Below the pieces are notes generated by a model that worked only from the letters and a program-made list of their open reading frames with translations, was not told the DNA's origin and made no database searches. From Saprospiraceae bacterium (GTDB lineage: Bacteria; Bacteroidota; Bacteroidia; Chitinophagales; Saprospiraceae): DNA of 64,000 nucleotides. Made by a program: the position numbers and the translations under genes. Shown here piece by piece: positions 7,044-18,168 of this stretch; the first letter of the stretch is position 1, and each line of letters opens with the position of its first letter. The stretch covers positions 1-64,000 of the forward strand of contig JANQRV010000178.1 of assembly GCA_028284395.1 (NCBI GenBank), read 5' to 3'.

Positions 7044-8156
7044 TTAATGTTGTACTAACTGTATTACTGCCCCGCCAATCTCTAATGCAGCATCGGGTCT
7101 TGCTAATGCTGTGACAGATCGTTGCAAACTACTCCGCACTGCATCGTCCTGAATAATTTTCATGGCTTCATCCAACATTTTGGGACTGGCCTCTCGGTCC
7201 CGCACCATAACTGCAGCACCTTTTTCTACCAGAGCCATTGCATTTTTGGTTTGATGATCTTCCGCTACATTTGGAGAAGGCACCAGTACGGCCGGTTTTC
7301 CTACGAGTGCCAATTCTGCTATGGCAAGGGCACCAGCTCTACAAATTACCACATCAGCAATGGCATATGCCAGATCCATCCGATTGACAAAAGCCGTAAT
7401 CCGAACACTGTCTAACTGTGCGGTCGGAGAATCTTTAAACGCATCCCAATACAGCTTTCCACTTTGCCAAAATACCTGTACGGTATCTTTATGATCCGCT
7501 AGAACCTTGGCACCAGCTGCCATCGCTTCATTGATGGTTCTCGCACCCAGGCTGCCACCAAAGACAAAGATTGTTTTCTTGCCCGGGTCCAGATCCAGCG
7601 TAGCGTAGGCTTTTGACCGAACATCGGAAGTCGGATTCAGGCCTTTTCTAACTGGATTTCCAGTCAAGAGAATTTTCTCTTTGGGAAAGTATTTCTCCAT
7701 GTTGTCATAAGCCACACATACCCGACTCACTCGCTGAGCAAGGATCTTGTTGGTCACCCCCGCATAAGAATTTTGTTCTTGAATGAGGGTTGGGATTTTG
7801 AGTCGGCTGGCAACTTCCAAGACCGGCCAACTAGCGTATCCACCAACTCCTACCACTACGGAAGGTTTGAACCGTCGGATAATCCAAAATGCCTTAAACA
7901 AACTGGAAATGAGTCGGACGGGAAATAATAAATTCCGCCATGTCAATTTCCTATGAAATCCACTGATCCATAGGCCTTTTATTGGATATCCCGCTTCCGG
8001 GACTTTTTCCATTTCTAATTTTCCCTTTGCACCAACAAAAAGGAATTCTGCGTCAGGTTGAAGTTCTTTAATCGCGTTCGCAATTGAGATAGCTGGAAAT
8101 ACGTGTCCTCCAGTTCCTCCACCACTAATGATAACCCTAATGTCTTGCTTTTTCAT
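7044..8156 (-). CDS. murG: UDP-GlcNAc:lipid I N-acetylglucosaminyltransferase MurG
   Basis: Makes lipid II at the inner membrane face. It has the N-terminal glycine-rich loop SGGGTGGHVFPA, the second glycine motif FGGSLGART, and the UDP-sugar-binding region CRAGALAIAELALVGKPAVLVP; conventional MurG proteins have CRSGA or CRAGA here. The length of 370 residues is normal. It is the first gene after a 360-nt gap inside the dcw cluster and appears to have its own promoter at 8327-8358. Confidence 0.97.
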   Translation of the reverse strand: MKKQDIRVIISGGGTGGHVFPAISIANAIKELQPDAEFLFVGAKGKLEMEKVPEAGYPIKGLWISGFHRKLTWRNLLFPVRLISSLFKAFWIIRRFKPSVVVGVGGYASWPVLEVASRLKIPTLIQEQNSYAGVTNKILAQRVSRVCVAYDNMEKYFPKEKILLTGNPVRKGLNPTSDVRSKAYATLDLDPGKKTIFVFGGSLGARTINEAMAAGAKVLADHKDTVQVFWQSGKLYWDAFKDSPTAQLDSVRITAFVNRMDLAYAIADVVICRAGALAIAELALVGKPAVLVPSPNVAEDHQTKNAMALVEKGAAVMVRDREASPKMLDEAMKIIQDDAVRSSLQRSVTALARPDAALEIGGAVIQLVQH

Positions 8157-8326
8157 CTACAGATTTAGGTCAATTGATTTCTGCCCACCATCAAGGTAAT
8201 TTCCTAGACAATAGCGAAATACTTTCCTTAGTGTATTTTGTTGTTATAGTGTTGTAAGCCCCCAAGTGGTTTGGAAAGGAACCTTTGGTTGAGAAGGATT
8301 TAGCGCTTTCTCATAGTTATTGCAAT

Positions 8327-8358
8327 CAAAACTACGACAATATAAAATTTTCACCAAA
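8327..8358 (-). promoter_or_regulatory. Bacteroidota-type promoter for murG-murC-ftsQAZ
   Basis: Read on the minus strand, TTTG (8358-8355), exactly 20 nt, then TAGTTTTG (8334-8327) fits the known Bacteroidota consensus TTTG-N19-21-TAnnTTTG. Transcription would start near 8320, leaving a leader of about 165 nt before murG. The element lies in the AT-rich 8157-8516 gap, the largest in the dcw cluster, where I see no other feature. Confidence 0.6.
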
Positions 8359-8516
8359 GGATTACAACCAAAAACAACTTTAAGTTCTTGATTTTCCATA
8401 TTACAACTTATACAACACAACTAGGTAAAATTCATTACCAACGATTAAAACAACTTCAATTTACTGATATACAAATATTTAAAACAATCACTTCCTTAGG
8501 TCTACATTAAAAGATA

Positions 8517-9653
8517 TCAGGAAGTTATCGATTCTATATACTTACTCACGCTGAGAATCATCCCAAATGAAATACAAGTAAATATGATGGATGTTCCCCC
8601 TTTACTGATCAGCGGCAATGTCAACCCAGTCACCGGAATCAAATGTAGATTCACCGCAATATTCGTAAATGCCTGCATCATCATGATCATGCTTAATCCC
8701 ATTACCAACATTGCTCCAAAAGCCTTGGGGCTTTTGGTAATGAGTCTCGTCGTTCGAAAAAAGAAGAATACATAAAGCAGGATGACAATAGCCCCTCCAA
8801 TGAAACCATATTCTTCGCATATAATGGCATAAATGAAGTCCGAATAAGGTGCTGGCAAATAATTTCTTTGTCGGCTATTGCCCGGCCCCAATCCAAATAA
8901 GCCTCCATTTGCGATTGCTATTTTTGCCTGCTCCACCTGGTACACCCCCTCTTCTTCATCCATGAATTCCTGTACTCTTGTAGTCCAGGTATCGCGTCGG
9001 ATGATATCGGGAAAGAACTCTCCCAAGGTCACCAGAATGGTGAATACAACGATTCCGAGAAATAATAGCAGTGCGATGTACTGCATCGCTACTCGACCAA
9101 TGAACATCATCACTAGACAGGTAAAAAATAATAGCAATGCCGTAGATCCATCTGCAGGTGCAATTAGGCCCACAATAATCAATACGGGTACTATGATCGG
9201 CAAAAACGCACTTTGAAAATCCTTAATATACTCCTGCTTGGAAGAGATTGCCCTAGCCACATAAATGATTAGAGCGAGCTTTGCAAACTCAGAAGTCTGA
9301 AACGTAATTCCTACCAATGGCACACTAATCCATCTTCGAGCCTCATTAAACTCCGCCCCAAAAGCTATTGTATACATCAGCATTGGGATCGAAATAATAA
9401 TGAGATACGGCGCCCATTTCGAGTACCTCATGTAATGCATAAGGTGAAAGAAATACGTCAGGAAAAGCCCTCCCAGCAATATGATGAATTGGATGATCAA
9501 ATAGGTCTCCGTATTTCCTCCTTGGTGTTTATAGGCCAATGTCCCGGTAGAACTATAAACCGCCAAAAGGGAAAATATGGACAACAGGATCACCACCGCC
9601 CAGATGGAGCGATCACCTTTGAACTCTGACGTTATTCTCGTACCTAAGGACAT
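8517..9653 (-). CDS. ftsW: lipid II polymerase FtsW (SEDS family)
   Basis: A polytopic SEDS glycosyltransferase with about ten membrane segments in 378 residues, working with the class B PBP encoded upstream by ftsI. Family motifs visible are the GGLFGLGPGNS region, the YAIICEEYGFIGG segment and the C-terminal LPLISKGGTS. The cluster context favours FtsW over RodA. It lies 20 nt after murD. Confidence 0.95.
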   Translation of the reverse strand: MSLGTRITSEFKGDRSIWAVVILLSIFSLLAVYSSTGTLAYKHQGGNTETYLIIQFIILLGGLFLTYFFHLMHYMRYSKWAPYLIIISIPMLMYTIAFGAEFNEARRWISVPLVGITFQTSEFAKLALIIYVARAISSKQEYIKDFQSAFLPIIVPVLIIVGLIAPADGSTALLLFFTCLVMMFIGRVAMQYIALLLFLGIVVFTILVTLGEFFPDIIRRDTWTTRVQEFMDEEEGVYQVEQAKIAIANGGLFGLGPGNSRQRNYLPAPYSDFIYAIICEEYGFIGGAIVILLYVFFFFRTTRLITKSPKAFGAMLVMGLSMIMMMQAFTNIAVNLHLIPVTGLTLPLISKGGTSIIFTCISFGMILSVSKYIESITS

Positions 9654-9673
9654 TCTCTAATTTTAAAATCAAA

Positions 9674-10984
9674 TTATTTCAATTGTAAAACTGCTTTCCT
9701 AAACCGGTCTCCTCGATCAATATAATTTCTGAAGAGGTCAAAGCTGGCACAGGCCGGAGACATCAAGACTACATCTCCTTCAGTTGCCTCGGTCTGTGCT
9801 AACTTTACAATTTCTTCCACATCTGCCGATTCTGTGAGTGGAATCCCAAAATCTACAAAGTGATTCAGTATCTTGCTATTATCAATCCCCATACAAATGA
9901 TGGATTTCACTTTTTTCCTTACCAAGGCATCCAGAACCGAATAATCATTTCCCTTATCTTGCCCGCCCACAATCCACACAATAGGCTTTTCCATAGCGTC
10001 TAGTGCATAGTATACGGAATCAACATTAGTTGCCTTACTATCATTGATGTACTCTACACCGTCCAGAATGGTCACAGTTTCCATCCGATGAGCAGCATTC
10101 GTGAAAGCGTTAAGCCCATTTTGAATCAGATCCTTTTCCTGACAAAAGTGATGCACGATACTAATGGCAAAAAAGGTATTCATTCGATTGTGGACTCCTC
10201 TAAGAGAGGTTGTCGACAAATCATATTCCTGTCCTCCAACCATCAGTGGTTTTCTAATAGCTTCCTTTTCAAGAATCGGGATCAATTGTGGTTTCAACTG
10301 CTTTTCTCTCATGAACGCTCCAATATTCTCATCACTAGCATTGTAAAAGAACATGTCATCCGGTAACTGGTTACGGATTATTCGAAATTTCGAATCTATA
10401 TATTTACTCAGATCATAATCGTAACGATCCAAATGATCCGGAGTGATGTTTAATATGGCAGCAAAATGAGGCCGGAAATCGACGATCCCATCCAATTGAA
10501 AGCTGCTCAATTCGAGCACAAAGATGCCATCATTCAAGCCTTCATCAATGGTAGTAGCAAAGCTTTTCCCAATATTACCAGCTAGATGAGCTGTCACCTT
10601 ACATGCCGTCAAAAGATGATGGATCAAGCGACAAGTAGTTGTTTTCCCGTTGCTGCCGGTAACAGCAATAATCTGCCCTTTGGCAAATTGTACCGCAAAT
10701 TCAATTTCTGAAATGATCGGAATGCCCGCCGAATCCAACTTTCGGACAACCGGTACGTTATCAGGTATGCCAGGGCTTTTTACGACCACATCGGCCTTTA
10801 GTAACGTTTCTATGTCATGTCCTCCTTCCTCAAAAGGGATATTGCGCTCTTCAAGTTTGGATTTGAATTCTGTTTTGATCTGCCCTCTTTCAGAAACGTA
10901 AACATCGATCCCTTTGGACTTAGCCAGTCTGGCGGCCCCGGTTCCACTTTCTCCCGCACCCAAAACGACCAGTTTCATCATCAA
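9674..10984 (-). CDS. murD: UDP-MurNAc-L-alanine--D-glutamate ligase MurD
   Basis: Cytoplasmic ATP-dependent ligase adding D-Glu. The N-terminal [13 protein letters not shown] loop binds the nucleotide substrate, [11 protein letters not shown] near residue 110 is the ATP loop, and [10 protein letters not shown] is the MurD C-terminal motif. The length of 436 residues is normal. Its start overlaps the mraY stop by 4 nt (ATGA type), suggesting coupled translation. Confidence 0.97.
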
Positions 10985-12249
10985 CGAATTTTAAGCGTAA
11001 TCAGAGTCAATACAGCGAGAATGATGCCTACGATCCAAAATCGCGTCACGATTTTAGACTCCGCCATTCCCTTTTTCTGATAGTGGTGATGCAACGGGGA
11101 CATTAAAAATATCCTTCGACCTTCGCCATACCTTCTCCTCGTATATTTAAAGTAACTCACCTGCAACATGACAGACACGGTCTCAATAAGAAAAACTCCA
11201 CAAAGCAGAGGGATTAGCAGTTCTTTCCGCAAAACAATTGCCATGGTCGCAATAATACCTCCGATTGTCAAACTACCGGTATCCCCCATGAAAATTTGTG
11301 CCGGAAAGGAGTTGTACCACAAAAACCCGATGCAGGCTCCAATAAAACAGGATGCAAAAATCACCAGTTCATCTGCGCCCGGCAAGTGTAGGATACTGAG
11401 ATAATTTGCCGTAATGGCATTCCCTGACAAATAAGCGAGGATCGCCAAGACCACAGCAATGATCCCAGAAACCCCGGTTGCTAAACCGTCAAGACCGTCG
11501 GTCAAGTTTGCCCCATTGGAAACAGCCGTAACAATGAAAATCACTAAGGGGCAAAACAACAGCCATACCCATCGGTAGGCTGCTTCCTTGCTCAAAGGCA
11601 AGAGCCAGGCATAATCCAGTCTGTTTCCCTTCAAAAAAGGGACGTTTGTGAGATTGGTTTTATAATCCCCCTTCAACACTGCTTCTCCATTATTACCGAC
11701 CCGGATCGTATCTCCTACCATGTGCTTGGGTTGTAGTCCCATAGAAGCAGCGTCTTCCAGATTCATTCGCACTTTTATGTCATCGCTAAAAAGCATCGTA
11801 ATGGCTACGATCAGCCCTAATCCAACTTGGCCACAGATCTTAAACCAACCTTTTAGGCCGGCTTTATTTTTGCGAAAGACTTTGATATAGTCATCCAAAA
11901 AACCAATAACCCCTAGCCAAGCCGTAGTAATGATCATCAGTATGATGTAGACATTGTTAAGTTTGCTCAACAACAAACAAGGAATCAAAATGGCCATAAT
12001 GATTATAATCCCCCCCATGGTCGGAGTACCCTCTTTCTCCTTTTGTCCTTGGAGGCCCAGATCACGGATCGTTTCTCCTACCTGTAGTCTGCGCAAAAAA
12101 TTAATGATTCGACCGCCAAATAGAAGAGAAATCACCAGGGAGATGATGGTCGCAAAACCAGCCCGGAAACTGATGTAGTTGAATAACCGGATCCAACTGA
12201 TCTCTTCTCCGTAAATTTCCTTTAACCAATCAACAAAATATAAAAGCAT
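10981..12249 (-). CDS. mraY: phospho-MurNAc-pentapeptide translocase MraY
   Basis: Integral membrane enzyme forming lipid I from UDP-MurNAc-pentapeptide and undecaprenyl phosphate. Conserved acidic and glycine motifs are present: [25 protein letters not shown] and the C-terminal [10 protein letters not shown]. At 422 residues it is some 60 longer than the E. coli enzyme because of a loop between membrane segments (about residues 160-230), which other Bacteroidota MraY proteins also carry. Confidence 0.97.
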
Positions 12250-12283
12250 CCTTACTGTTTATGAAGGTTTCTAACCTATTCCA

Positions 12284-13735
12284 TTACAATAACTCATTTT
12301 CTAAAATCTCTCGATCATCAAAGGGAAATCGAACGCCATCGATTTCTTGATATTTTTCGTGCCCTTTTCCCGCAACGAGAATGATATCCCCCGCATTGGC
12401 GATCCGGCATGCCGTTCGGATAGCCTCCCTCCGATCCGTAATTGACAATACTTTTCGAACCGCCACAGCCGGGATCCCCTTTTCCATTTCTTCGATAATG
12501 CTATGAGGGTCTTCGGATCTTGGATTATCAGAAGTAAGAATGACCTGATTACTCCAATCACATGCTACCTTAGCCATGGTGGGCCTTTTTTCCCGATCCC
12601 GATCCCCTCCACATCCGACTACCGTGATCACTCGGGCAGTAGAATTCCTTACCTGGGCAATCGTCTTAAGTACATTTTCAAGTGCATCAGGTGTATGCGC
12701 ATAATCAACAATTGCAGTGATCTTACTTTCCGGTCCGACAATACTTTGAAATCGCCCTTCCGGGGCCTGCAAACTGCTTAATTTGGTGAGAACTTCATAA
12801 GCATCTGCCTCTAACAGCATTGAAGTACCGTAGACGGCCAACAGATTATAGGCATTGTAATGGCCGACCAACTGGCTGAATATTGAAGTGCCGTTCATTT
12901 CCAGATAAAGTCCTGAGATGCTATTTTCTAAAACTTTGCCCTTAAAATCAGCCACCCTTTTCAAACTGTAGGTATAAACCTTGGCTTTGGTGTTTTGGAC
13001 CATCACTGTACCCCGTTTGTCATCAATATTGACGAGGGCAAATGCAACCGCAGGCAACTCATCAAAAAAAGCCTTTTTTGCCTTGATATAAGCATCAAAA
13101 GTTTTGTGATAAAGTAAGTGGTCGTGCGACATATTTGTAAAGACTCCGCCTGTAAAGTGCAATCCAGCGATCCGTCTTTGATGTACAGCGTGGGAGCTAA
13201 CTTCCATAAAGGCATAGTCACAACCTGCCTCAACCATTTTTGAGAGAAGGTCATTTAGAGTGATCGCGTCGGGAGTCGTATACTTTGTCGTCAAGATTTC
13301 GGTACCAATTCGATTCACATTTGTCGACAACAGGCCGCATTTATAGCCTAACTCGGAAAACAGGTCGAACAACAAAGTTGCGATCGTCGTCTTGCCATTG
13401 GTCCCGGTGATCCCAACAAGTTGCAAAGATCGGGAGGGATGACCAAAAAAAGTACTGGCCAATCTGCCAAGACTATCCGGGCTATTCTGAACTTTCAAAT
13501 AGGTAATTCCATCGAGAAATTGATCGGGACTTTCTTGATATAGGATCGCCTTTGCCCCGTTATTTACTGCCTTTTCAATGAACTTGTGACCGTCGACTTG
13601 AACCCCCTTGATGGCTACAAACAAATCGCCAGTCGTTATCTTTCTAGAATCAAATTCAATCTTGTTTATCTCTATTGCCGTATCTCCGTGTGTATCAATT
13701 GTGTTTATTGCAGCTAAGAGCTGTTTTAAATTCAT
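12284..13735 (-). CDS. murE: UDP-MurNAc-tripeptide synthetase MurE, meso-DAP type
   Basis: Cytoplasmic ligase adding the third stem-peptide residue. The ATP loop GTNGKTT is at residues 111-117. The C-terminal motif DNPRSEDP is the form found in meso-diaminopimelate-adding enzymes, so the wall should be of the DAP type. The length of 483 residues is normal. There is a 34-nt gap to mraY and 9 nt to ftsI. No murF is present in this cluster, so it must be elsewhere. Confidence 0.96.
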   Translation of the reverse strand: MNLKQLLAAINTIDTHGDTAIEINKIEFDSRKITTGDLFVAIKGVQVDGHKFIEKAVNNGAKAILYQESPDQFLDGITYLKVQNSPDSLGRLASTFFGHPSRSLQLVGITGTNGKTTIATLLFDLFSELGYKCGLLSTNVNRIGTEILTTKYTTPDAITLNDLLSKMVEAGCDYAFMEVSSHAVHQRRIAGLHFTGGVFTNMSHDHLLYHKTFDAYIKAKKAFFDELPAVAFALVNIDDKRGTVMVQNTKAKVYTYSLKRVADFKGKVLENSISGLYLEMNGTSIFSQLVGHYNAYNLLAVYGTSMLLEADAYEVLTKLSSLQAPEGRFQSIVGPESKITAIVDYAHTPDALENVLKTIAQVRNSTARVITVVGCGGDRDREKRPTMAKVACDWSNQVILTSDNPRSEDPHSIIEEMEKGIPAVAVRKVLSITDRREAIRTACRIANAGDIILVAGKGHEKYQEIDGVRFPFDDREILENELL

Positions 13736-13744
13736 GTTTCCGTT

Positions 13745-15895
13745 TTAATCCAGGGTCAACTTAATGGTTTGGCCATTGATCATCGTACCAGCCAAAATAG
13801 ACTGACTTACCACTTTCCCAAAGCCACTGATTTCAACTCCCAGACCTCTGTTCTCGAGGACGTATAAGGCATCTCTCAATCCCATTCCTACTACGCTTGG
13901 TACCCGATCTTGCGGAATAGACTTGTTCAATATTTTAATGGAATCGGTGCGGGAATCAATCACGCCCAACTCGGTTTCCGGCTGTCCGTAATAACGAAGA
14001 TTCAATTGACTGAGTACTTGCTGAATATCTTCCTTATGGCCGATGTCCATATGAGGCAATTGGCGGCTCACCAATTTGGGTTTTGGCAAATTATTTAAAG
14101 GAGCATGCAGCTTGATCTTTGTGGCATAGGCCTTGTCCGCTATCTCTCTGAAAACGGGCCCTGCCACCTCACCTCCGTAAAAGCCATTTTGCTTGGGGTT
14201 ATAAATGACAACGATACAGGAATAAATCGGTTTGTCAGCCGGAAAATACCCTACAAAGGAAGCCTGATACCCACCGACTCTAGTATAAGTTGAGTAACGA
14301 GTATAATCAATTTGGGCCGTCCCGGTCTTTCCAGCAAATCGATATTCATCAGTATATAATTTATACGCAGTCCCATTTTCTACTACTCCTTCCAGCAATT
14401 CCTTAGCAGCTTCTATGGTGTTCGGAGAAGCGATTTGTTTTTTGATTACCAGCGGTTTAACAACTTCCTTTGTCTCTCCAAAATGTTGGATTTCCGAAAC
14501 TAGGTAAGGCTTCATCATCGTTCCATTATTCGCTACGGCATTGTAAAAGGTCAGCAGTTGTAATGGAGTAATTTGCAATTCATATCCATGGGCCATCCAA
14601 GGCAAGGTCAATCCACTCCAAAGATCCTCTTCGGAACCCGCTTCCTTGATATAGGGGTCAACTTCCCCATCTATTTCAATTCCAGTCGGTAAATTCAGAT
14701 TAAAATCCTTAAGTCGTTGAATGAAACGAGCCGCACCTTCCCATCTGACGGTTTCATTCTCACGACCATAATAATGATCTACCAGAGTAGCTATACCGAC
14801 ATTAGAGGATATTTCGAAGGCATGCTTGATCGTTACGCTGTCTAAATTTCGGCTCAGTGGGTTATCATCCGTCATGGTGATTTCATAAAACATCTTCTCT
14901 CCATTCTCCAGGTGTACACTATCGTCAAGAGAGATGTAGCCATCTTCTAACAAGGCCATAATAGAAGCCAATTTAAAAGTTGAGCCGGGTTCCGTACGAG
15001 AACCGATCGCATTGTTATAGACTTCGAAGAACCCATCTTCGTCCTTACCTTTGCTCAAATTCGCAATGGCTTTTATGGCACCGGTCTTTACATCCATTAC
15101 AATGGCAGCCCCCCAATCCGCATCGTGGGCCTGGACTCCCCTCATCAATGCCGATTCGGCAATATCTTGAAGATTGATGTCGAGTGTAGTAACAATATCG
15201 TAACCATTCTGTGGTTCAATCTGTGTCAAATCCTGAAGTGGCATCCAAATGTTATTGCCTTTGTCGACCAAAGCCATCATTTGTTGTCCAGGCACTCCTC
15301 CCAATACTTCGTCGAACCGGCCTTCCAAGCCGATCTTATATTCTCCTCGAGAATACCCAATGGACCTGAAAGCCAATCTACCAAAGGGATATTCGCGGCC
15401 ATTCTTTTTCCGTGCGATGAAACCACCGCGAAACTGCCCCAACTCAAAAAGAGGTAATTCCTCCAACATTTGTTTTTGAGAATAGGAAATCCCTCGCACT
15501 AATGGAATGAAGCGTTTCTTACCGGCTCTCCATTGCATCAATAGTTCACGATATTTACCAGCCGTGTATTGCCCAATGTATTGATTCAGACTTTGAGCTA
15601 AAGAATCGACATGGTAGTGAAAATCTTCATCTGAAGCAGCGAGAGGGTCAAAGTAAATGTCAAAAAACGGAATGGAGGTCGCCAATAGACTCCCATCTTC
15701 AGCCATGATGTTCCCCCGTTCAGCTTCTACCGTACGTAATTGTATGTAACGCTGTTCCCCCTTCCCTCTCCAGTAATCACCTTCCAAAATGCCGATCTGA
15801 ATGGTTCGATAAAGCAATAGGACGGATATTGGTACGATGATACCAAACAATATGATGTAAATCCTTACCAGTACTTCATTCTTAATATCCATCAC
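13745..15895 (-). CDS. ftsI: division transpeptidase FtsI (PBP3-type) with PASTA domain
   Basis: A class B penicillin-binding protein of 716 residues. It has an N-terminal membrane anchor (about residues 9-29), a pedestal domain, then a transpeptidase domain with SxxK at S305/K308 (GSTFK), SxN at 363-365 (SSN) and KTG at 523-525. The catalytic set is therefore complete. A C-terminal PASTA domain (from VPSVVGMGLRDALYVLE) follows. PASTA-bearing division PBPs are usual in Bacteroidota. Confidence 0.96.
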   Translation of the reverse strand: MMDIKNEVLVRIYIILFGIIVPISVLLLYRTIQIGILEGDYWRGKGEQRYIQLRTVEAERGNIMAEDGSLLATSIPFFDIYFDPLAASDEDFHYHVDSLAQSLNQYIGQYTAGKYRELLMQWRAGKKRFIPLVRGISYSQKQMLEELPLFELGQFRGGFIARKKNGREYPFGRLAFRSIGYSRGEYKIGLEGRFDEVLGGVPGQQMMALVDKGNNIWMPLQDLTQIEPQNGYDIVTTLDINLQDIAESALMRGVQAHDADWGAAIVMDVKTGAIKAIANLSKGKDEDGFFEVYNNAIGSRTEPGSTFKLASIMALLEDGYISLDDSVHLENGEKMFYEITMTDDNPLSRNLDSVTIKHAFEISSNVGIATLVDHYYGRENETVRWEGAARFIQRLKDFNLNLPTGIEIDGEVDPYIKEAGSEEDLWSGLTLPWMAHGYELQITPLQLLTFYNAVANNGTMMKPYLVSEIQHFGETKEVVKPLVIKKQIASPNTIEAAKELLEGVVENGTAYKLYTDEYRFAGKTGTAQIDYTRYSTYTRVGGYQASFVGYFPADKPIYSCIVVIYNPKQNGFYGGEVAGPVFREIADKAYATKIKLHAPLNNLPKPKLVSRQLPHMDIGHKEDIQQVLSQLNLRYYGQPETELGVIDSRTDSIKILNKSIPQDRVPSVVGMGLRDALYVLENRGLGVEISGFGKVVSQSILAGTMINGQTIKLTLD

Positions 15896-15992
15896 AAATG
15901 CTTTTCGCCTTTGTTGTTCTTTTAAAAGTGGTTTGCCCGCAGGCTTTGTTAAATTATATTCCTGGTAAATGTAGTTACAGATCCACCTTGAC

Positions 15993-16319
15993 TTATTCTT
16001 CGGCCCTAATCTTCAATCTTTTGGGTTTGCTTCTGATCGGCTGCAATCCGTCCTCCTTTGCGTTCTCTACCACCTCCGATCGTTTGCTATTGTACATGTT
16101 TTCAGCATGAAGTGATTTATAGTACCACCGCATTTCTTTAATTTCTTGTTGATACATCTGTATTTGCCTCACATTTCTCTCTGCATAATGTGCATTGGCA
16201 ATGTAAATGGTTGCCAAAAACCCTAAGAATACTACAAAAGGAGTATTCTTCAGTATCCACTCTGAAGTAATAAAACTTAAATCATTGATTGTTAGATTAT
16301 TACCTTTTTTTCGAGCCAT
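15993..16319 (-). CDS. ftsL: FtsL-like cell division protein
   Basis: A 108-residue bitopic protein with a basic cytoplasmic start (MARKKG), one membrane segment at about residues 27-43 and a short coiled-coil-like periplasmic part rich in Gln, Glu and Arg. The assignment rests on topology, size and its position between rsmH and ftsI; sequence similarity to proteobacterial FtsL is low in this phylum. It is followed by a 97-nt gap before ftsI. Confidence 0.8.
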   Translation of the reverse strand: MARKKGNNLTINDLSFITSEWILKNTPFVVFLGFLATIYIANAHYAERNVRQIQMYQQEIKEMRWYYKSLHAENMYNSKRSEVVENAKEDGLQPIRSKPKRLKIRAEE

Positions 16320-16500
16320 TCAACTGTTTATTTATTTAACGGTTTTCAATACCCCGGTTATTATGCAATCTTCATTTTTATGATAGGTTTCTCAAGCTTA
16401 TTCTTGTTCCGGCAACCCCACACTTTCCCACAAAAAGAAGCACCGATATCACTTCGTGTATAAATTACGAGAATTTACCTCAGAAAAAGCATATCGCCCA

Positions 16501-17400
16501 CTAATTTTTTTCTCCGATTCGAAGTTTTGCACTTCTCGCCCGGGCATTTTCTTTCACTTCCTCAGAGGTAGGCAAGATGGCCTTCTTCGTTAAGATCTTG
16601 AAAGGCCTGTTAATATGACCATAAAAGTCTTTTTCCACAACCCCTTCAACATTGCCAGTTTTCAAAAAGTGCTTTACAATTCGGTCTTCCACCGAATGAT
16701 AAGAAAGGACGACCAACCGCCCACCTGGCTTCAAAAGTGCTAGGGCATTCTCCAACAGCTGCTGGAGTGCCTCCACTTCTCCGTTAACCTCCATCCTCAG
16801 CGCTTGAAATACTTTGGCCAGATACCTTTGTCTTTGGCCTTTGATGATCGGCTCCACAATTTCCAATAGGTCCGAAATACTATCTATAGAATATTTTGAA
16901 CGGTATTCCACAATCCTGGTTGCTAAGGTCTTTGCATTTCTCACTTCTCCGAACAAACTAAATATCCTTTGCAATGATCCAGGGTCGTATTTTTTGATTA
17001 TATCCGCTGCCGTCACTTCCGTTCCTTGGTTCATCCTCATGTCTAGTGGCCCGTCGTTGCGAAAGGAAAAACCCCTTTCCGGAACATCAAACTGATGTGA
17101 GGAAACACCAAGATCCGCCAGAATACCATCTACTTCTCTAATGCCATGAACTCTTAAAAATCTTGGCATATAACTAAAATTACTGGCTACGAACACGAAC
17201 CTTCTATCCTCCAGGGCATTCTTCTCCGCATCCGAATCTTGATCAAAACCAAACAATCGTCCATTGGGACCCAATTGATCTAAAATCCGAGCTGAATGAC
17301 CGCCGCCACCGAAAGTGGCATCGACGTAAACCCCCTCCTGTTGCACCTTCAAACCCTCTACCGCCTCTTCCAGCATGACTGCCTTATGATATACCTGCAT
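16501..17400 (-). CDS. rsmH: 16S rRNA (cytosine-1402-N4) methyltransferase RsmH
   Basis: SAM-dependent methyltransferase modifying the ribosomal decoding centre. It has the family start MQVYHKAVMLEEAVEGL, the SAM motif DATFGGGGHS, and later GILADLGVSSHQFD and LSYHSVEDRIVK. I placed the start at 17400 (299 residues): an upstream in-frame ATG at 17478 would add 26 atypical residues lying within mraZ. With the chosen start it overlaps the mraZ 3' end by 17 nt, suggesting coupled translation. Confidence 0.95.
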   Translation of the reverse strand: MQVYHKAVMLEEAVEGLKVQQEGVYVDATFGGGGHSARILDQLGPNGRLFGFDQDSDAEKNALEDRRFVFVASNFSYMPRFLRVHGIREVDGILADLGVSSHQFDVPERGFSFRNDGPLDMRMNQGTEVTAADIIKKYDPGSLQRIFSLFGEVRNAKTLATRIVEYRSKYSIDSISDLLEIVEPIIKGQRQRYLAKVFQALRMEVNGEVEALQQLLENALALLKPGGRLVVLSYHSVEDRIVKHFLKTGNVEGVVEKDFYGHINRPFKILTKKAILPTSEEVKENARARSAKLRIGEKN

Positions 17401-17854
17401 CGTTGTCCTCTTTAGCCCCCAGAACCTCTTCGGCCAGATCCGAAAAATCCCGGGGTTCATTCCGCAACAAGTTATCATATTCTTCTTTCGACCACAACTC
17501 TATGCGGTCGTTAAATGCCGAAAGAATAACTTCTTTCTTTATCTCGGCGTAATCAAGTAATCTTCTAGTAATAAGAATCCGATCAGACTTGTCAATTGAT
17601 ACTGTCTGAGCGCCCCGGTAAAAATACCTCACAAAATCCCGGTTCTTTTTGTTGTATAGATTCAACTGATTGATCTCTGCGGTAATCTTTTCCCAAACCC
17701 GTTCGGGGTATATCATCAAATACTTTTCAAAACCTCGGTTAATTACAAAATTGCTTGCCCCGGCTTCCCCCAATTGGTGGATCAGTCCACTCGGCATCCG
17801 CATTCTACCCTTCTCATCTATCTTACAGTCATATTCTCCTAATAACTGATGCAT
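17384..17854 (-). CDS. mraZ: transcriptional regulator MraZ
   Basis: First gene of the dcw cluster. The 156-residue protein has two AbrB-like DNA-binding repeats; the first starts LLGEYDCKIDEKGRMRMPSGL and the second has DKSDRILITRRLLDYAEI. MraZ assembles as a ring and binds direct repeats upstream of its own operon in bacteria where it has been studied. Such repeats are present here at 17892-17928. Confidence 0.95.
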   Translation of the reverse strand: MHQLLGEYDCKIDEKGRMRMPSGLIHQLGEAGASNFVINRGFEKYLMIYPERVWEKITAEINQLNLYNKKNRDFVRYFYRGAQTVSIDKSDRILITRRLLDYAEIKKEVILSAFNDRIELWSKEEYDNLLRNEPRDFSDLAEEVLGAKEDNDAGIS

Positions 17855-17891
17855 TTCTTACATAGCTTTTGCAAATAACAGATCAAATCTA

Positions 17892-17928
17892 CAACTTTTT
17901 TCCACTTTTTGCCACTTTTCTCCACTTT
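17892..17928 (-). promoter_or_regulatory. MraZ box array (four 10-bp repeats)
   Basis: On the minus strand the unit AAAGTGG occurs three times with exactly 10-bp spacing (plus-strand CCACTTT at 902, 912 and 922 of this kilobase), with a fourth degenerate unit AAAGTTG at 892-898. This matches the MraZ-binding repeat AAAGTGK-N3 described from Mollicutes. The array ends 38 nt from the mraZ start codon. The rest of the 17855-18168 intergenic stretch holds only an ATCCAG/CTGGAT mini-hairpin; no clear -33/-7 promoter was found. Confidence 0.75.
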
Positions 17929-18168
17929 TTAATTTTCTGTATAACAAAGTATTAGCCTATAACTTTCAATGAATTACCAATACTAAATGAAGGATATTAC
18001 TGCTAAAAAGCGAAGAGACGATCCCGATCGATCCCGGAGTAGCGAGGCTGTTAACGACCAAGCCAATACTATCTAAGTCATTAAAATACAATCATTTAAT
18101 CCAAAGAAAACTTCAATCCAGGATTCAACTGGATGGTCATGAGGTGGGAAAAAGTGGAATAACGGCTA

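Follow-up and report, generated by a model that had tools for sequence, protein, structure and literature searches.

In a 64,000-nucleotide stretch of DNA from a member of the Saprospiraceae (hereafter the window), four tandem repeats upstream of mraZ are very probably (we estimate a probability of roughly 0.9) the MraZ operator of the dcw promoter, predicted to act in autorepression by exclusion of RNA polymerase, with an inverted auxiliary site as a probable second component. The cluster headed by mraZ is among the best conserved in bacteria, yet work on its regulation covers few lineages. That dcw promoters carry MraZ boxes is established, and the broad distribution of these boxes has already been remarked upon (PMC7761207); the proximal array described here is a further instance of the boxes found in E. 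coli, Burkholderia and Mycoplasma. Thus, the idea of a site conserved between distant phyla, put forward in a sequence-only reading of this DNA, is right as regards the conservation of the repeats but is not new.

The box array and the genes behind it

The coordinates of the array, its neighbouring elements and the dcw genes are collected in Table 1. Read on the minus strand from 17928 to 17892, the array comprises AAAGTGG three times and AAAGTTG once, separated by the trinucleotides aga, caa and aaa (AAAGTGGagaAAAGTGGcaaAAAGTGGaaaAAAGTTG as one string), with TAGATTTG directly 3' and without a gap. All four boxes are spaced exactly 10 bp apart. Letters, strand, period and coordinates are as the sequence-only reading gave them; its distance of 38 nt to mraZ agrees as a coordinate difference, with 37 bases lying between 17892 and the start codon at 17854. 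The match that it proposed to the Mollicutes MraZ box, AAAGTGK-N3, is borne out by the consensus quoted in two reports (PMC5282649, PMC8475190). The -7 box next to box 4 and the distal inverted pair are additions to that reading. Both marks of an MraZ operator, tandem GTGG/AAAGTGK boxes with a 10-bp period and a location at the mraZ/dcw promoter, are found together here.

Table 1. Positions of the dcw genes and of the predicted regulatory elements in the window
Feature	Position	Strand	Remarks
Remaining dcw genes: ftsL-position ORF, FtsI-type PBP, murE, mraY, murD, ftsW, murG	7044..16319	-	
rsmH (mraW), second dcw gene	16501..17400	-	Start approximate; TIGR00006, 312.7 bits
mraZ, dcw transcriptional regulator	17384..17854	-	TIGR00242, 108.1 bits (cut-off 98.35)
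Predicted -7 element (TAnnTTTG) of the dcw promoter, TAGATTTG	17884..17891	-	10 nt downstream of the box 3 GTGG
MraZ box 4, degenerate AAAGTTG	17892..17898	-	Weakly conserved overall
MraZ box 3, AAAGTGG	17902..17908	-	GTGT frequent in relatives
MraZ box 2, AAAGTGG	17912..17918	-	Each base of GTGG conserved to 97% or more in 93 Bacteroidia-type promoters
MraZ box 1, AAAGTGG	17922..17928	-	Register kept in relatives
Weak DnaA-box-like element, TTATACAGA	17936..17944	-	Occupies the position of TTWTCMACA in most Bacteroidia
Distal inverted MraZ box pair, GTGGgaaaaaGTGG	18144..18157	+	218 nt upstream of the proximal array

A search pattern of three AAAGTGG boxes at a 10-bp period, with up to three mismatches allowed, matched this array alone within the window and none of 100 dinucleotide shuffles. 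Across the source assembly (653 contigs, 11.15 Mb in total), every three-box match with fewer than 2 mismatches is one of the two registers of the same array. A DnaA gene was not found in these 11.15 Mb, so the assembly may be incomplete or mixed. An Rfam search of the region returned no RNA element. A further GTGG-N6-GTGG pair lies inside the dcw cluster, between rsmH and the ftsL-position ORF (16418-16431, minus strand); with 0.8 such pairs expected per window, it could be a product of chance or an internal MraZ site.

The genes behind the array form an ordinary dcw cluster in which mraZ comes first, followed by rsmH and then by the remaining genes in the order of the first row of Table 1. 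The ORF in the ftsL position (15993-16319, minus strand, 108 aa) had no NCBIfam match at 1e-10 and probably encodes a diverged FtsL-like protein. The product of the first gene is assigned to the MraZ family by a profile score above the curated cut-off together with a modelled MraZ fold. Both D-x-x-x-R loops of MraZ are conserved, D13-R17 and D88-R92 being invariant, and the monomer model matches 9qlg, 1n0e and 9r4j with TM scores (by query) of 0.72-0.79. The solved MraZ structures that the model resembles include M. genitalium MraZ on its own promoter and on a four-box promoter. Judged by MraZ, the nearest relatives are Saprospiraceae MAGs and Phaeodactylibacter, with 61-75% identity; the array is also present in the cultured species Phaeodactylibacter luteus (L035).

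Conservation of the array and its place in the promoter

The upstream regions of 172 mraZ genes from across the phylum were scored for three GTGG boxes (maximum score 12) at periods of 7 to 14. At period 10 on the sense strand, at least 11 of 12 positions agreed in 127 of these regions, and although related species are not independent, the sampled genomes represent dozens of families. The other periods gave 0-1 regions at this score and 0-8 at a score of at least 10; the antisense strand gave none and five, and dinucleotide shuffles 0/860 and 3/860, respectively. The order to which the window belongs was sampled separately with 80 regions, a set that overlaps slightly with the first; 56 of them scored at least 11. 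The sequence-only reading had named disappearance of the repeats from close relatives with mraZ as a finding that would speak against it; at a score of at least 10, however, 152 of the 172 regions of the phylum and 67 of the 80 regions of the order have retained the repeats. About 12% of relatives score below 10, many of them with just two good boxes. In the base profile, the GTG of every box carries 1.65-2.0 bits per position and the A positions about 0.4-1.4 bits, and the spacers are A-rich. Box 4 is only partly kept in Saprospirales relatives, for example as AAAGTTG in three loci (L041-L043) and as AAGTGA in another (L039).

At the scale of whole genomes, a permissive three-box pattern (one mismatch allowed) occurred at background level in 48 genomes, about as often as its reversed control, and a stricter array pattern was therefore adopted. 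This pattern had matches in 58 of 149 whole genomes, and its reversed control had none. Among the 52 genomes in which the place of mraZ was also listed, the strict array lies on the same strand less than 200 nt upstream of mraZ in 51; the sole exception has an inverted array within the same mraZ upstream region. In 20 genomes with rsmH and without a detectable mraZ, no array was found upstream of rsmH, where the scores were 6-9 with one at 10 (0/20 at 11 or above). Loss of the array thus goes along with loss of the MraZ protein.

The array has a near-fixed place in the promoter. In the window, box 4 adjoins a -7 box that matches the Bacteroidota consensus perfectly. Among relatives with Bacteroidia-type promoters, 106 have an element like TAnnTTT[GA], and in 93 of these it lies 10-12 nt past box 3. 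Since TAnnTTTG is the -7 box at positions -12 to -5 (PMC9723704), the array of the window would span about -49 to -13 relative to the start site, which is predicted near 17879, some 5 nt past TAGATTTG. A clear -33 element is missing from this promoter. A scan of the region for sigma-70 promoters and terminators gave no matches, as is to be expected of sigma-70 where the promoter is of the TAnnTTTG type. A further 35 Bacteroidota have a TTGAC -35 element, and in these the array is located downstream of the promoter. These genomes (e.g. L104-L107) share the boxes and the mraZ context with the window, but have an E. coli-like geometry in which the TTGAC element precedes box 1 by about 26-48 nt. 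The box and MraZ stay constant, and the side of the promoter on which the array is found differs between lineages.

The inverted box pair and a DnaA-box-like element

The distal pair of the window lies 11 nt past the stop codon of a neighbouring glycosyltransferase gene. In 63 of 223 regions (about 28%), an inverted pair with the same 10-bp period was found in the 300 nt preceding the proximal array; across the 223 regions, same-strand pairs numbered 3, inverted pairs at other spacings 0-8 and pairs in shuffles 0.5. The inverted pairs lie 40-240 bp further upstream and nearly always consist of two boxes, not three. In L041-L043, which have the same glycosyltransferase neighbour as the window, the alignment shows the pair retained at the corresponding position amid flanks that have diverged. 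Ownership of the pair by the promoter of a divergent neighbouring gene was considered as a general explanation and rejected, as the pair also occurs beside collinear neighbours (L313, L314, L316, L327, L328 and the window). Its presence with collinear and divergent neighbours alike assigns it to the mraZ regulatory region. The distances between the proximal and distal sites favour a period of 10.3 bp (jitter test, p=0.004), less clearly so once the most populated cluster, at 69-72 nt, is left out (p=0.053); this suggestive helical phasing of the two sites hints at looping. The inverted two-box site is probably an auxiliary operator in many Bacteroidota, including this genome.

Directly upstream of the array, the motif TTWTCMACA (up to one mismatch) was found in 84% of Bacteroidia-type promoters, with 6% in shuffles and 13% further upstream, the consensus having been derived from the same sequences on which it was scored. 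An independent DnaA consensus, TTATNCACA, was found beside the array in 58%, versus 6% in shuffles. The motif stands next to the array in either orientation (L010, L025, L051-L059, L149 and others) and is weak in the window. It resembles DnaA boxes (TTATCCACA; PMC5835720), and in B. subtilis the promoter region of ftsL is bound by DnaA (PMC8203912). In the dnaA flanks of 29 genomes, clear clusters of such boxes were not found, and a local DnaA box could not be identified there. A role of TTWTCMACA as a DnaA site is therefore offered as a lead only. In one family of the order (L323-L327 and L332), several DnaA-box-like sequences, up to four, lie about 190 to 265 nt upstream of mraZ and might point to a region that resembles an origin or is regulated by DnaA.

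Predicted repression and its alternatives

Binding of MraZ to (AAAGTGK-N3) repeats and repression of dcw by MraZ in E. coli and M. genitalium have been described (PMC5282649 for binding; PMC8475190 for repression). The sequences themselves show the boxes, the -7 element, their conservation, the joint loss with mraZ, the confinement of the array to one place in the genome and the inverted pair; binding, repression and bridging by the MraZ of the present organism we infer. A ring-shaped MraZ multimer would contact successive boxes on one face of the helix. As the array adjoins the -7 box and covers -49 to -13, bound MraZ would keep the sigma factor of RNA polymerase off the -33/spacer region by steric exclusion, so that mraZ would be repressed together with the downstream division genes in a negative autoregulatory loop. 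Repression might be strengthened by bridging of the proximal and distal sites. Counting against this proposal are the degenerate box 4, the roughly 12% of relatives that score below 10 and the presence of the inverted pair in no more than about 28% of regions. A more elaborate arrangement, in which the two opposed operators (one of three to four boxes, the other the inverted pair) are bridged by one or two MraZ rings and the DnaA-like element provides a link to replication initiation, is tentative; such bridging would form a DNA loop or wrap.

MraZ overexpression in M. gallisepticum is said to have raised dcw expression, so activation by MraZ is conceivable, with the array standing in for the missing -33 element and recruiting RNA polymerase. 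The want of a recognisable -33 TTG is compatible with an activated promoter, and the near-fixed offset of 10-12 nt at which the array adjoins the -7 box is of the kind shown by activator sites that touch sigma. However, MraZ acts as a repressor in both of the species named above, and the array of E. coli and of Bacteroidota with TTGAC promoters is downstream of the promoter, a position from which repression alone is readily envisaged. Activation is accordingly judged unlikely, and repression is clearly favoured over it.

Control by a G-quadruplex has been claimed for the mraZ promoter of S. aureus (PMC11796246), and the GG runs of the present repeats are regularly spaced, with four runs and hence a possible two-tier quadruplex in 48 of 219 arrays. 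The array of the window has three GG runs only, because its box 4 reads GTTG, and falls short of the minimum of four G runs; the third box is GTGT in 42 of the 219 arrays, and what is conserved is GTG with an A-rich spacer and a 10-bp period, all of which make a quadruplex very improbable. Equally improbable is the proposal that runs of A4-A6 at a 10-bp period bend the DNA as a UP-like element, with GTGG incidental. The A-runs of the window are indeed helix-phased, but GTG is better conserved than the A positions, and the presence of the array tracks that of mraZ. Chance, or drift of simple repeats within an AT-rich spacer, would account for three of the four repeats being near-identical, as after a recent tandem duplication; this account is refuted by the comparative data, given the 100 unmatched shuffles of the window, a pattern unique in 11 Mb and conservation throughout the phylum, and its probability is negligible.

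Among known systems, the operator of M. genitalium and M. gallisepticum, (AAAGTGK-N3)k, is closest: it has the same 7-nt box and 3-nt spacer, repeated in tandem immediately before mraZ. The motif is confined to the mraZ promoter in M. genitalium (PMC8475190), like the array in this genome. For Mollicutes, a cryo-EM complex of MraZ with a four-box promoter is available (9sz7). The array discussed here differs in lying upstream of a TAnnTTTG -7 box and in having an inverted distal pair. E. coli and Burkholderia cenocepacia likewise have GTGG(G) repeats with a 10-bp period at the dcw promoter, those of E. coli standing at -44, -34 and -24 from the mraZ start. These repeats are placed downstream of the -10 element, over the start site (PMC7761207), while those of Bacteroidia lie upstream of the -7 element, and in E. 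coli an inverted pair is absent within 634 nt upstream. Auxiliary operators of the lac/gal type resemble the present layout in combining a primary with a secondary site, here 40-240 bp apart and possibly in helical phase; unlike them, MraZ has a different protein fold, the secondary site is inverted and looping is hypothetical. No earlier description of the class-wide placement upstream of the -7 element or of the inverted two-box partner was found in the open-access literature searched.

The analysis yields a predicted operator, promoter and regulatory layout for the whole phylum. It shows that the operator has switched sides of the promoter while the pairing of protein and box stayed unchanged. 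In addition, a second, inverted site would recast MraZ from a one-site repressor into a possible DNA-bridging ring.
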